DNA of 39,840 nucleotides from Thaumarchaeota archaeon CSP1-1 (lineage in GTDB: Archaea > Thermoproteota > Nitrososphaeria > Nitrososphaerales > Nitrosopumilaceae), in assembly GCA_001443365.1 (NCBI GenBank), contig LDXL01000009.1:1-39840 (forward strand), written 5' to 3'. This document shows positions 35,344 to 39,840 of the stretch, one piece after another. The notes under the pieces are model-generated. The model made no database searches, had not been told where the DNA came from, and worked only from the letters and a program-made list of their open reading frames with translations. Position numbers and translations under genes: made by a program. Positions within the stretch are counted from its first letter, which is position 1, and each line of letters starts with the position of its first letter.

Positions 35344-36354
35344 ATGGCAATTAGTCTATCAACGCTTTATGTTATGATTCATTTATTAGCAGTTTTTGCA
35401 TTAGCCACAGCTCCGTTTATTTTCTTTAGTGTATATGCAGATGATACTCAAAATGAGTGGAAAATAACTATTCCAAACGGGGCATCAGGTAAAGGACCAG
35501 TACAAGGATTTTCCCCTAATCAATTGCCGGTTTTGGTTGGAGACACTATAGTGTGGGAGAATAAGGACAGTGTTACTCATAGTATAACAAGTGGCGTACC
35601 AGAACATCCAGAACATTCTGGGGTATTCTTTAATCTGGGCGAGGTAGCACCTGGAAAATCTGTTTCACATGTAATGCCAGATACAGATTTTCTAGCATTC
35701 TATTATTTTTGTGAAATTCATCCATGGATGACTGGAAAATTTTTTAATAGTGGTTTGGAAGTTGCACAGCCAGAAACTGATACTGAAATAATAACTAAAG
35801 AAAACAAATACGATTATGGAGACTCGATTACCATCTCAGGTCAAGTTCACAAAGATTTTGCAAAAACAGAGTATATGGTACTAATTTATGATCAAAGTAA
35901 TAATCTAGTCGACATTTCATATGGATATTTTGATGAGAATTCAACTTATTTACAATCAATAAATGCAAATGGCCCTGCTTGGGCAACAAATGGAAATTAT
36001 CAAGTAAAATTGGTATATGGAGTACCAAGTAAAGCATCCCAAACAAGTTTTCAGTTCTCAAGTGAATTAAACGCCCTAGAAACTGAACAATTAATTCCCC
36101 TATGGGTAAAAAACATCGGAGGTTTTTGGTGTAATGATAAAATTGATGACTCGGAATTTGTTAGCGCTGTTCAGTATTTGATTCATGAAGACATTATTCA
36201 TTTAAGAAATATAGTATCTGATACTTCGCCTTCGAATCAAGTCCCAGATTGGGTTAAAAGCAATGCTTGCTGGTGGGCAGATGATAAAATACCTGAGGTT
36301 GATTTTATTTCTGGTATAGAATATCTAGTGAATGTTGGAACAATTAGGGTGTAG
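35344..36354 (+). CDS. plastocyanin-like blue-copper protein with tryptophan modules
   Basis: 336 residues. The N-terminal hydrophobic segment (about 1-32, a signal or anchor) is followed by a cupredoxin domain with type 1 copper ligands H79 (SVTHSI), C123, H126 and M129 (FCEIHPWM). A beta-sandwich follows (about 145-245, YDYGDSITISGQVH), then two tryptophan modules (LWVKNIGGFWCNDKIDDSEF and VPDWVKSNACWWADDKI). Blue-copper proteins are numerous in ammonia-oxidising archaea and probably carry electrons outside the cell; here the protein is also tied to the surface modules seen in the genes at 23741 and 30305. The stop abuts the convergent SWIM gene. Confidence 0.88.
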   Translation: MAISLSTLYVMIHLLAVFALATAPFIFFSVYADDTQNEWKITIPNGASGKGPVQGFSPNQLPVLVGDTIVWENKDSVTHSITSGVPEHPEHSGVFFNLGEVAPGKSVSHVMPDTDFLAFYYFCEIHPWMTGKFFNSGLEVAQPETDTEIITKENKYDYGDSITISGQVHKDFAKTEYMVLIYDQSNNLVDISYGYFDENSTYLQSINANGPAWATNGNYQVKLVYGVPSKASQTSFQFSSELNALETEQLIPLWVKNIGGFWCNDKIDDSEFVSAVQYLIHEDIIHLRNIVSDTSPSNQVPDWVKSNACWWADDKIPEVDFISGIEYLVNVGTIRV

Positions 36355-36594
36355 TTACTTTTCTTTTTTGAATATTCGTATCGCTTCAAGGTGGGAACAA
36401 TTTGCTTTTAGTCCTTTTCCATGATGAAACTTGTAAAAGTTCTTGAATCCCTCACATTCACAGGTTTCAGATGTAACAAAATATGATTTGTTTGGATCTG
36501 TTAACGATTTGATTTGAAAAAGATCTTCTTCGATCTGTATCACGCCTCCACTTTCAACGAGTTTTTTTGCTTTCCTTAGTGTACTTGCACTCAT
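36355..36594 (-). CDS. small SWIM-type zinc-finger protein
   Basis: 79 residues. It has an N-terminal helix (MSASTLRKAKKLVESG), a beta stretch ending SYFVTSETC, and the SWIM pattern C45-x-C47...C66-x-H68 (CEC, then NCSH). SWIM fingers bind DNA or proteins. The last residues are basic (IFKKEK). It ends exactly where the plastocyanin gene ends on the other strand. The ATG start is clear. Confidence 0.78.
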   Translation of the reverse strand: MSASTLRKAKKLVESGGVIQIEEDLFQIKSLTDPNKSYFVTSETCECEGFKNFYKFHHGKGLKANCSHLEAIRIFKKEK

Positions 36595-36699: not shown

Positions 36700-37035
36700 C
36701 TGTCAGTAGAGAGGAGATTCAACCAAACACCTGGGGATACTAATATTAGCGTTCTAGGATACTTGACTAAAATTGGTACATGGTTAAATCTAAGACAGAT
36801 TACAACTGGTACCCCAGGATCTGACCTAAACAGAGATAGATTAAAAAAAATTATTGATGGGTTTGTTAACAAAGGATTTGTAGAAACAAGGGACAGCGAA
36901 AATCCAAAGGCCAAATTAGAATATAAAATAACAGACAAAGGGAAAAATGCCTTTAGAAAATGTGTCAGTTTTGATCCTGACATTAAATTTGTTTTGGGAT
37001 TACAAGATACAGAATTTTTCCCAACAGGGGACTAG
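36700..37035 (+). CDS. winged-helix DNA-binding protein, probable CTG start
   Basis: The frame is open from CTG at 36700 and continues with TWLNLRQITTGTPGSDLNRD, then LKKIIDGFVNKGFVETRDSE and a beta hairpin and final helix. This is a small winged helix-turn-helix of about 110 residues. The first ATG-like choice, the TTG at 36763, would drop about 20 well-formed residues (SVERRFNQTPGDTNIS). A GGGGAG motif is 7-10 bases before the CTG. The stop overlaps the convergent membrane gene by 4 bases. It is a candidate regulator of the operator pair at 37914-37980. The start codon remains to be proved. Confidence 0.65.
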   Translation: MSVERRFNQTPGDTNISVLGYLTKIGTWLNLRQITTGTPGSDLNRDRLKKIIDGFVNKGFVETRDSENPKAKLEYKITDKGKNAFRKCVSFDPDIKFVLGLQDTEFFPTGD

Positions 37036-37880
37036 TCTATCCACAACATAGAGTACCCGTGTTCTTCTTCAAAGATTAAATCAAGTTTAAAGTACTTTGG
37101 TAACTGGTCCATGATACCAATTAATTTGTTTGATTGAAGTTCTTCGTCATAATCCTTTGCAACACATAACACTCGAAATATTTTATCACGTGATTTAGAT
37201 AATAGAGTAACCAAGTTTTTGATATCAGAAACAGTTACAGTCTTGTCATAAAACTTTACGATAAAATCGCCTTTCTTAGTTGATACTATTCCATCTATTG
37301 TATCACCATTAATTTTTTGATCTAATTTGTATGGAATTTTAGTTTGTTTTTGTTTTGCTTTGCGTTGAATTTCTTTTAGAGTGGGAAATACATGAATTGC
37401 TTCATTTAGAATTTTTTCAACCCTTGTTTGGCCTTCTGGTACTGATGTTTCAAAATTAACCAGATATGATTGACGGATAAACTGTCTTTCTATTGATTCG
37501 AACTCTTGGGTATGTGCTTTTCCTCTGTATGTGACCCATACAAAAAGAAATGATAGTAATGCTATGACTATACCGTTTCCATACATCAACCAAACTTGAG
37601 TAATGTATAGTGCGACTATACCTTCTGCAGGAAAGATATCCTCTGTAAAGGGGATAAATGCAAGAACTGTAATGTCTTTGTCTTGAACATAAATTTCATC
37701 AATATATCCATGCTTGCCAATTTCATCATGAAAATAAAATTGTGACATTGAAATAATTCCAGACAAGGAAGCTAAACCAACTAAAACTATTATAATGCTA
37801 ATTCTGTACCAAGCACCTAATTGTTTAATAGCATTGTCTAGCTTCTCTGCTAAAGATAGATCCTGTGGCCCCTTCGACAC
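37032..37880 (-). CDS. membrane-anchored nuclease-fold-like protein
   Basis: 282 residues. It has two membrane helices (about 24-46 and 96-118) flanking a loop that carries acidic residues (FFAEDI-type region near 77-84), then a charged linker. A C-terminal domain (about 195-282) contains NGDTIDGIVSTKKGDFIVKF, then SDIKNLVTLLSKSRDKIFRV. That pattern (D-G-I-V, then xVK, then an amphipathic helix) resembles the Mrr/PD-(D/E)XK fold, although the usual acidic residue before the lysine seems to be replaced. The start is GTG at 37880. It is divergent from the PIN gene, with two palindromes between them. Confidence 0.6.
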   Translation of the reverse strand: MSKGPQDLSLAEKLDNAIKQLGAWYRISIIIVLVGLASLSGIISMSQFYFHDEIGKHGYIDEIYVQDKDITVLAFIPFTEDIFPAEGIVALYITQVWLMYGNGIVIALLSFLFVWVTYRGKAHTQEFESIERQFIRQSYLVNFETSVPEGQTRVEKILNEAIHVFPTLKEIQRKAKQKQTKIPYKLDQKINGDTIDGIVSTKKGDFIVKFYDKTVTVSDIKNLVTLLSKSRDKIFRVLCVAKDYDEELQSNKLIGIMDQLPKYFKLDLIFEEEHGYSMLWID

Positions 37881-37913
37881 GATGTGATGTCAATATGCCA
37901 ATATTTAACGTGA

Positions 37914-37930
37914 TGTTACAAATTGTAACA
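37914..37930. promoter_or_regulatory. operator-like palindrome 1
   Basis: TGTTACAAATTGTAACA is a perfect 8-1-8 inverted repeat in the divergent space between the genes at 37880 and 38031. A near-identical copy follows at 37964-37980. The spacing between centres (37922 and 37972) is exactly 50 bp, close to five helical turns, so proteins bound at both would lie on one face. The regulator is unknown; the winged-helix protein at 36700 is a candidate. Confidence 0.65.
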
Positions 37931-37963
37931 TGACAAATAAGGTTCTGATCAAAAGTTAAAAAC

Positions 37964-37980
37964 AGTTACAATTTGTAACA
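37964..37980. promoter_or_regulatory. operator-like palindrome 2
   Basis: AGTTACAATTTGTAACA is a 7-1-7 inverted repeat, the same as palindrome 1 apart from the outer pair and the central base. It lies 24-40 bases before the TATA-like box of the PIN gene. Confidence 0.6.
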
Positions 37981-38003
37981 TGATACGTTTGCTTCAAAAT
38001 CGC

Positions 38004-38010
38004 TTTTATA
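38004..38010 (+). promoter_or_regulatory. TATA-like box for the PIN gene
   Basis: TTTTATA is centred about 24 bases before the TTG at 38031, which suits a leaderless transcript. The proximal palindrome ends 24 bases upstream of it. Confidence 0.45.
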
Positions 38011-38030: not shown

Positions 38031-38459
38031 TTGCCAATTAATAATACAGGACAGCCAGTGGTAGTTGATTCTGACATTATCATTAAAGAGATTCAAGAGG
38101 GAAGATCATTAAAACCAATAGCCAAGAGAATTAAAAAACATAAATCAAAAATGGTTATTCCAGAGTCTGTTCTAGGTGAAGTACAAAAGATTACTGGTAA
38201 TCAAACAGATTCAATAATGGATACCATTTACCAGTTTTGCAAGTATCCAATCACACTTGATAAGACTGATGAGATTAATGCTGAATCAGATAGATTAGTT
38301 GCTCAATACAATGAATGTCATCATCCACATAGTTTGATTTTGGCTACAGCAAAGGTAACAGGTTCTGCTCTGGTAAGTTTTGATAGAGAATTCTTAGAGA
38401 CTGCAAAACTAGAAGGGATACAAGCATTTTTGCCTCGTAATTTTGTTAGATGGTGGTAA
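38031..38459 (+). CDS. PIN-domain protein, probable ribonuclease
   Basis: 142 residues. PIN-like acidic positions: D13 and D15 in VVVDSDIIIK, E45 in IPESVL, and D118 in SFDREF. The region NECHHPHSLILATAKVTG aligns with the helix that usually supplies another acidic residue, but here carries H/S instead, so the active site may be incomplete. PIN proteins are typically RNases, often toxins. The gene is followed within 15 bases by the pseudo-receiver gene and seems co-transcribed with it. The start is TTG at 38031; no in-frame ATG lies upstream. Confidence 0.78.
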   Translation: MPINNTGQPVVVDSDIIIKEIQEGRSLKPIAKRIKKHKSKMVIPESVLGEVQKITGNQTDSIMDTIYQFCKYPITLDKTDEINAESDRLVAQYNECHHPHSLILATAKVTGSALVSFDREFLETAKLEGIQAFLPRNFVRWW

Positions 38460-38473
38460 GGAGGAAATATACA

Positions 38474-38818
38474 ATGAAACTGCTTGTGCTAGAACAAAAT
38501 GAACTAGTTTCCAAGATTTATAAAAAAATTTTCGAGGAAAAAAAATATGATGCAGACTATGCAAGAAATGACTTGGAGTGTTTAGAGAGATTTGATAAAA
38601 ATTATGATTATGTTGTATTAGAAAACTCCAATTTAGGCACACTTGAGCAAAAAATTCGAAAAATCAAGCCAGACCAAAAAATACTCTCTTTATCCCAATA
38701 CATCAATTCTGAATGCGCACCTGAGCTTAAAGAGACTAGAGAACTAATCGAGAAACCCTTTGCCGTTTTAACCATGATTAGCAGATTAGAACTAGAGTGC
38801 ACAAATTTGCATAATTGA
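38474..38818 (+). CDS. degenerate receiver-like protein (D to E at the phosphosite)
   Basis: 114 residues with the CheY-like beta/alpha order: MKLLVLEQNELVSKIYKKIF, then YDYVVLENSNLG, KILSLS and LIEKPFAVL. The phosphoacceptor aspartate is replaced by E50 (VVLEN), and the acidic pocket is also altered (LEQN). The lysine (K94) and Ser of the T/S position remain. It is probably a constitutive or non-phosphorylated receiver. AGGAGG (38459-38464) is a strong Shine-Dalgarno 9 bases before the ATG at 38474; it overlaps the stop of the PIN gene, so the two are translationally coupled. This ATG is preferred over an upstream in-frame ATG at 38450. Confidence 0.8.
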   Translation: MKLLVLEQNELVSKIYKKIFEEKKYDADYARNDLECLERFDKNYDYVVLENSNLGTLEQKIRKIKPDQKILSLSQYINSECAPELKETRELIEKPFAVLTMISRLELECTNLHN

Positions 38819-38935: not shown

Positions 38936-39124
38936 CTACTTACACTTTTTCTTATGCTTTCGTAGTTCTTCGGAATAATCAAATTCGGTTCCACAAACTC
39001 TACATTTTTCTTTAGTTTTTTTGTGTGCTTTTTCTTGGTGTTTTTTTAACCGTTCAGAATCAGAAAGTTCTAGTCCACATTCTTTACACTTTGTGCTATT
39101 GGAACCAAAGCTAAATAATCCCAT
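38936..39124 (-). CDS. protein with two C2H2-type zinc fingers
   Basis: 62 residues. Finger 1 is C13-x2-C16 with H29 and H34 (CKECGLELSDSERLKKHQEK). Finger 2 is C41-x2-C44 with H57 and C61 (CRVCGTEFDYSEELRKHKKK), so the last ligand is a cysteine. The N-terminus (MGLFSFGSN) is short. It probably binds nucleic acid. The ATG at 39124 is clear. It is stand-alone. Confidence 0.72.
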   Translation of the reverse strand: MGLFSFGSNSTKCKECGLELSDSERLKKHQEKAHKKTKEKCRVCGTEFDYSEELRKHKKKCK

Positions 39125-39176
39125 AACCTGATTATACTATATCTAATAGAAAAATAGTTCTAGATAGTAAATTAAT

Positions 39177-39293
39177 TTAGGCGTCAAAAATTGTATCGTT
39201 TGAAGATTCATCTGACTTTGGAAGAATTATTCTTGCAGATGTAATCTTGAGCCAGGTTTGTGACTCGCCTGAATAGATTATTCGTGCATTCAT
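39177..39293 (-). CDS. 38-residue hypothetical peptide
   Basis: The frame from the ATG at 39293 encodes MNARIIYSGESQTWLKITSA, then RIILPKSDESSNDTIFDA, with two amphipathic strands. It has a clean start and stop and normal codons. It may be a small strand-rich peptide, or chance. No family is recognised. Confidence 0.4.
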   Translation of the reverse strand: MNARIIYSGESQTWLKITSARIILPKSDESSNDTIFDA

Positions 39294-39408
39294 TTATTAT
39301 TCAATTTTTTATCTAGTAAGAAAATAATACCTTTTATGAAACTGGTAATCTAGACTCGCTGATTCATATTATAAGTTAGCGAGGAACAGAGTAATTAAGA
39401 TAGAATAA

Positions 39409-39840
39409 TCATTCCTGCTCTTTGACAACATTTAATGTCATTGTTGTTCTGATAAATTTCAATTTTCTTATCTTTTTTGTAATTATCTTTTCAAGTTCCT
39501 TATGGTTTTCAGCTTCAATTTTTCCTACAACATCATAGTTACCATAAACTACATCTGCTTCTTTTACCTCAGGAATTTCATTGAGGTCTCGTAGTACAAG
39601 ATCTTCTTTGCCTTGGTCACAATGAATGACAATGTAAGCTTGTGCATCATTTTTTCCCAAAAGGGAGCCCATTAATTTTTCATGGTGTGCTTTAAACAAT
39701 TCCTCTCCTTCTACTTTCATAAGTGTCATTGTAGAACCAATTTTTTCCACCTTCCTAATTTTTTCGGTAATGGTTTGCTTAATTTTTTCATCAGAATCTG
39801 CTTCAAGCTTTGCAATAATGTCGTATAGCCCTAGAGTTCC
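39409..39840 (-). CDS. tandem Lrp/AsnC ligand-binding (RAM) domain protein, 5' part outside
   Basis: The frame continues to the right edge, so the true start is beyond the window; a GTG at 39750 is only internal. The visible 143 residues contain two Lrp/AsnC effector-type units. The first ends in LGLYDIIAKLEADSDEKIKQ, then EKIGSTMTLMKV. The second runs AYIVIHCDQGKEDLVLRDLN, then VVYGNYDVVGKIEAENHKEL and ends RTTMTLNVV. These domains bind amino acids or other small molecules. No helix-turn-helix is visible in this part, though one could lie beyond the edge. It may be a stand-alone sensor. Confidence 0.75.
   Translation of the reverse strand, partial: GTLGLYDIIAKLEADSDEKIKQTITEKIRKVEKIGSTMTLMKVEGEELFKAHHEKLMGSLLGKNDAQAYIVIHCDQGKEDLVLRDLNEIPEVKEADVVYGNYDVVGKIEAENHKELEKIITKKIRKLKFIRTTMTLNVVKEQE

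Follow-up and report, generated by a model that had tools for sequence, protein, structure and literature searches.

Genes of the locus

The window, by which we mean the whole stretch of 39,840 nucleotides analysed here, comes from a genome of 1.36 Mb and contains four genes arranged around a divergent promoter, which we refer to as the cassette. A winged-helix (wHTH) protein of about 110 aa with a MarR/LmrR/AF1382-like fold, the candidate operator binder, is encoded on the forward strand at 36700..37035. Tail to tail with it lies the gene for a membrane protein of 282 aa (37032..37880, reverse strand), and in the window the stop codons of the two genes share a CTAG at 37032-37035. On the other side of the promoter, the gene for a PIN-domain protein of 142 aa (38031..38459, forward strand) is followed by that for a pseudo-receiver protein (38474..38818, forward strand), whose open reading frame runs from 38450 and whose ATG at 38474 stands after a GGAGG at 38460-38464. 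No open reading frame of at least 60 aa was found between 37880 and 38031, and the PIN gene is the first of its operon. In two of the three genera that carry the cassette, the window's genus and a third besides Nitrosotenuis, there is no ATG, GTG or TTG at the conserved N-terminus of the wHTH protein (36700-36709); the likely start is a CTG after GGGGAG, where Nitrosotenuis has TTG or GTG.

The gene identities proposed in the first-pass annotation (restriction-endonuclease-like fold, PIN, receiver-like and winged helix) all held. The membrane protein consists of a transmembrane helix, a short extracytoplasmic loop, a second transmembrane helix and a cytoplasmic domain, the core of which is predicted to have the beta-beta-beta-alpha-beta order of the restriction-endonuclease-like fold. 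Its top structural match was NucS (2vld; probability 1.00, E 1.4e-3), with SfsA and restriction enzymes ranking next; whole-chain TM-scores were low (0.2-0.3). The PD-(D/E)xK catalytic set is incomplete: D196 and K209 are kept, and the Glu of ExK is absent, residue 207 being I, V, A or T, and never E, in the aligned close relatives. Because this Glu is missing, a nuclease activity of the membrane protein is doubtful. In NCBIfam no match was found for either the membrane or the PIN protein, and a wider search of the class found no member of the membrane family outside Nitrosopumilaceae. Distant homologues of the membrane protein in two other genera adjoin a wHTH gene that differs from the one in the cassette, and the cassette's motif was not found upstream of them. 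In one of these genera, the outer loop between the transmembrane helices carries a PDZ domain. This arrangement suggests a receptor in which the sensor can be exchanged and a wHTH protein remains the partner. Upstream of the PDZ-bearing genes at L022 987-2189 and L023 889-2091 there is an inverted repeat, GTCTTAAAAAAGTTAAGAC, which is possibly a diverged operator.

The PIN family match passes the Pfam cut-off (PF01850, 29.4 bits against 23.6). All four conserved acids are kept in the other two genera and three in the window (D13, E50 and D118), in which H100 takes the place of the third acid, Asp; the corresponding codon (38328-38330) encodes His in the window, Gly in Archaeon MnTg01, and Asp in the other two genera. 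In the pseudo-receiver protein, Glu replaces the phospho-acceptor Asp in all aligned homologues. The toxin of VapBC systems is a PIN domain, and toxin-antitoxin operons typically have palindromic autoregulatory operators, both of which speak for the PIN/receiver pair being a toxin-antitoxin module and the palindrome described below its autoregulatory site. However, no VapB-like open reading frame precedes the PIN gene, whose partner is the receiver-like protein downstream; the third catalytic acid of PIN has been lost in the window's genus; and the cassette has stayed at the same chromosomal position in all three genera. A toxin-antitoxin module is therefore very improbable.

The order of wHTH gene, membrane-protein gene, operator, PIN gene and pseudo-receiver gene is the same in the three genera. 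Core genes flank the cassette, a SWIM-like gene on one side and a DppB/C-like permease pair on the other, both named by eye from the sequence and not by family match. In three genomes of the Nitrosotenuis genus (G069, G099 and G125) the four genes and the operator are all absent, and the SWIM and permease genes adjoin. The four genes are present or absent as one block. The SWIM-like gene (36355-36594) was considered as a further member and rejected, because it occurs in 147 of 200 genomes. Adjoining it, a cupredoxin-like secreted protein is encoded at 35344-36354, with a close homologue there in every cassette genome whose gene order was compared; it is missing at the locus in the cassette-less genomes of the Nitrosotenuis genus. 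Since its presence at the locus follows that of the cassette, this gene may be a further member of the unit. Two open reading frames at 38936-39840, a zinc-finger-like one of 62 aa and an AsnC-like dimeric-barrel one, separate the cassette from the permease; they stand at that place only in the window's genome and are absent there in MnTg01. Just beyond the window end the sequence is a run of N. Our literature searches found no paper on the cassette, and none of the family libraries searched names the combination of membrane nuclease-fold, PIN and pseudo-receiver proteins as a system.

The palindromic sites and their distribution

Between the GTG at 37880 and the TTG at 38031 lie 150 bp of divergent space, in which there are two palindromes. 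Candidate operator site 1 (37914..37930, centre 37922) reads TGTTACAAATTGTAACA and is a perfect palindrome with 9-bp arms, including one flanking base. Candidate operator site 2 (37964..37980, centre 37972) reads AGTTACAATTTGTAACA and has perfect arms of 7 bp, its outermost pair being broken (A/A). The two sites have a 15-bp core in common and their centres are exactly 50 bp apart, which confirms the coordinates of the first-pass annotation. The same annotation placed the sites on one face of the helix, five turns apart; this holds only approximately, since 50 bp corresponds to a non-integer 4.76 turns at 10.5 bp per turn. A lone palindrome would be unremarkable, because odd palindromes with arms of at least 7 bp number 5 in the window against 5.7 expected under a first-order Markov null. 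A pair less than 200 bp apart with near-identical arms has an expectation of 0.01 per window.

To place the motif in the family, we searched 200 genomes of Nitrosopumilaceae. The exact 15-mer core, GTTACAAWTTGTAAC, occurs in 14 of them, in every case at the divergent promoter of the cassette and nowhere else. Three further genomes, all of which have the gene pair, contain the motif with one mismatch, and the resulting set of 17 is the same as the set of genomes with the gene pair. The reversed motif, used as a control pattern, had no match in the 200 genomes. Those cassette-less genomes that were scanned with mismatches allowed, the three of the Nitrosotenuis genus among them, contained no site with fewer than two. 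Of the named relatives that carry the locus, MnTg01 is the nearest; the locus also occurs in Candidatus Nitrosotenuis species, N. chungbukensis MY2 among them, and in Nitrosopumilus sp. b1. In the window's own genome a third near-site (C1:17470) lies inside a TFB coding sequence and was taken as chance. The proposal that the locus is a self-contained regulated module is supported by the presence or absence of the genes as a block and by the restriction of the palindrome to that block. On this distribution the palindrome looks like a dedicated operator of the four-gene cassette.

Nitrosopumilaceae encode many small regulators, and the protein on the site could be a general or chromosomal one, for instance of the Lrp/AsnC or TrmB kind, instead of the wHTH protein of the cassette; a gene for an AsnC-like C-terminal domain is indeed found nearby, at 39409-39840. 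However, one motif locus per genome, in cassette genomes only, does not suit a regulator with other targets, and the AsnC-like gene is absent between cassette and permease in MnTg01 and in the other genomes whose gene order was compared. We consider a chromosomal regulator unlikely.

Promoter geometry and the number of sites

Site 1 lies 5 bp from the TATA box of the membrane-protein gene (37902..37908, reverse strand; TATTTAA on the forward and TTAAATA on the reverse strand), which is invariant in the 17 genomes. Site 2 lies 23 bp from the TATA box of the PIN gene (TTTTATA, 38004..38010, forward strand), which is 97% conserved. Both distances hold without exception in the 17 loci, from three genera: TATTTAA always has a site 5 bp to its right, and TTTTAT a site 23 bp to its left. 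Conservation across the 17 genomes is 97% in the columns of the site and 56-64% in the outer flanks. On the PIN side of site 2, the extension TGATAC (37981..37986) is 99% conserved over the 17 genomes and reads as a putative third half-site-like element. The PIN transcript is probably leaderless, because the TTG start follows the TTTTATA box by about 25 bp. The stretch between the membrane-gene TATA box and site 1 may be read as the BRE position; judged by eye, the bases before TTAAATA (ATCACG/ATTGA) are not A-rich.

Palindromes are inverted repeats and could as such be RNA hairpins or terminators, or could overlap a coding region, instead of being operators. In this locus, however, they lie upstream of both TATA boxes and outside both predicted transcripts, with a fixed spacing to the boxes, and no open reading frame of at least 60 aa covers them. 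This explanation is hardly credible.

The number of sites differs among the genera. All 15 loci of Nitrosotenuis and the third genus have a single site, in the arrangement TATTTAA-5 bp-site-23 bp-TTTTATA. The window and MnTg01, which represent the window's genus, have two, of which site 1 keeps the 5-bp and site 2 the 23-bp distance, with a linker of 33 bp between them. The first-pass annotation had tied the palindrome pair to the gene pair; the motif is present in all 17 genomes that keep these genes, but the two-site form is absent from 15. MnTg01, the second species, retains the two sites at the same distance of 50 bp, and 24 of the 33 linker positions are identical to those of the window. 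That both sites are intact despite drift of the linker between the two species points to selection on the sites. Most likely, the two-site region was lengthened by about 50 bp through tandem duplication of a site-bearing segment. Similarity within the linker, with a shuffle p of about 0.008 in the window and 0.08 in MnTg01, is weakly suggestive of such a duplication. Only the genus with two operator sites has lost the third PIN acid.

These comparisons bear on the earlier proposal that two dimers, bound 50 bp apart, loop the DNA or bind cooperatively and so silence both genes. The distance is exactly 50 bp in both species of the window's genus with a complete locus, which is in line with that proposal. 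However, a single site is present in 15 of the 17 loci that have this gene pair, the spacing is not a whole number of turns, and a tandem duplication would by itself keep both promoter distances, so that a spacing of 50 bp need not have been selected. Because the other two genera have a single site, looping or cooperating dimers are not supported as the basic mechanism; two-site looping would be limited to one genus at most, and as an account of the locus it is quite unlikely.

The candidate binder and the mode of control

The wHTH protein is the only DNA-binding fold among the cassette proteins. It was found in 18 of the 200 genomes, namely the 17 with the membrane-protein gene and a close PIN gene, and G031, a fragmentary genome of a cassette-carrying genus in which the contig ends inside the wHTH gene. 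Its AlphaFold model (pLDDT 73.8) has a winged-helix fold, with MarR (E 4.8e-4), LmrR (9.9e-4) and AF1382 among the top Foldseek hits, and the segment LRQITTGTPGSDLNR is invariant. The model fold and the size of the operator resemble those of MarR/PadR-type dimers on palindromes of 16-20 bp; unlike these, the wHTH sequence stays below the curated family cut-offs (HTH_45, 20.3 bits against 25.5; PadR, 15.8 against 27). Co-occurrence alone cannot single out this protein as the binder, because all four cassette genes co-occur. The combination of being the only DNA-binding fold in the cassette and of occurring only with the cassette makes it the best candidate, and it is probably the protein that binds the operator. 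The region of its own promoter contains no site (best match 9/17), and it therefore lacks a signature of autoregulation. Searches for a viral origin found no relative among viral contigs, and a defence-system library gave only weak wHTH matches (LmuC, 8e-4; CARF3, 0.007).

We propose that one putative wHTH dimer, bound between the two TATA boxes, would co-regulate the two units that flank it, namely the membrane-protein gene and the divergent PIN/pseudo-receiver operon. In the ancestral arrangement with one site, the dimer would lie directly upstream of the membrane-protein gene's BRE, and its distance upstream of the BRE of the PIN gene would be about two turns. In the window's genus, each promoter would have gained its own copy of the site at the ancestral distance after the duplication. 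We infer the duplication, the identity of the binder and the sign of control from the arrangement of the locus, and we give the explanation as a whole (dedicated operator, wHTH dimer, co-regulation and duplication) a probability of about 0.7.

Control could be of either sign, and the silencing of both genes that was first proposed is one of the two. We lean towards activation, because the site stands just upstream of both BRE/TATA elements and not on or after them. By analogy with TFB-RF1 and EarA, recruitment of TFB/TBP has a slightly better than even chance of being the mode of action. Alternatively, the footprint of the dimer over the BRE of the membrane-protein gene could repress, and steric hindrance at that promoter is a tenable, if less probable, outcome.

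TFB-RF1 of Thermococcales activates from a palindrome, TCTG-N5-CAGA, just upstream of a weak BRE and TATA box, and has few targets per genome, its own operon among them (PMC5937170). EarA, also an activator, recognizes a motif at the arl operon that is separated from the BRE downstream of it by nine nucleotides and has one to three copies among relatives (PMC10665913). The cassette resembles TFB-RF1 in its small regulator candidate, its few targets and a short palindrome at a conserved distance near the promoter. It shares with EarA the fixed distance upstream of the promoter and a number of sites, here one or two, that varies among relatives. As in both systems, the palindrome lies at a fixed distance just upstream of the promoter elements, here in 17 genomes. 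The palindrome differs from that of TFB-RF1, two divergent promoters share a single site, and no site accompanies the wHTH gene; activation has been demonstrated for TFB-RF1, whereas the sign of control in the cassette is read from position. EarA, which occurs in Thermococcales and methanogens, differs in its motif and acts in a single promoter direction.

To our knowledge, few pairs of transcription factor and operator are known from ammonia-oxidising archaea, and our literature search found none for the cassette locus. The cassette offers such a pair in directly testable form, since its motif is found at one locus per genome, the geometry of the promoters is fixed and a single protein stands out as the candidate binder. 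The cassette would give these archaea a chromosomal unit of membrane nuclease-fold, PIN and pseudo-receiver proteins with a DNA switch of its own between the two divergent promoters, and its locus shows one operator becoming two within a genus.

The membrane protein may sense an outside cue that is passed to the wHTH and PIN parts. More tentatively, and with some doubt, the cassette could be a membrane-to-RNase signalling system not described before. Such a system would consist of a receptor with two transmembrane helices and a nuclease fold without its catalytic glutamate, which would control the partner wHTH protein; through a single operator reserved for the cassette, the latter would switch on the receptor and the PIN/pseudo-receiver effector. 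The sensor loop on the outside would be exchangeable, distant homologues having a PDZ domain there.

Distant PIN paralogues (25-33% identity) in other Nitrosopumilaceae are divergent from a gene of the HFX_2341-type CARF-wHTH family (128.8 bits against a cut-off of 30). At these loci, as in the cassette, the PIN gene shares a divergent promoter with a sensor/wHTH gene, and at several of them this promoter bears a palindrome. They differ in that a soluble CARF domain is fused to the wHTH domain, whereas the cassette has a separate membrane protein and wHTH protein, and also in their operator; no pseudo-receiver gene was seen there. The sharing of a divergent promoter with a palindrome by a PIN gene and a sensor/wHTH gene thus seems to be a repeated arrangement in Nitrosopumilaceae, which we offer as a lead. 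The palindrome ATAGTATGCATACTAT or a similar one is found in the CARF-wHTH/PIN divergent promoter at several of them, namely L086 (686-1914), L087, L089, L092 and L094.
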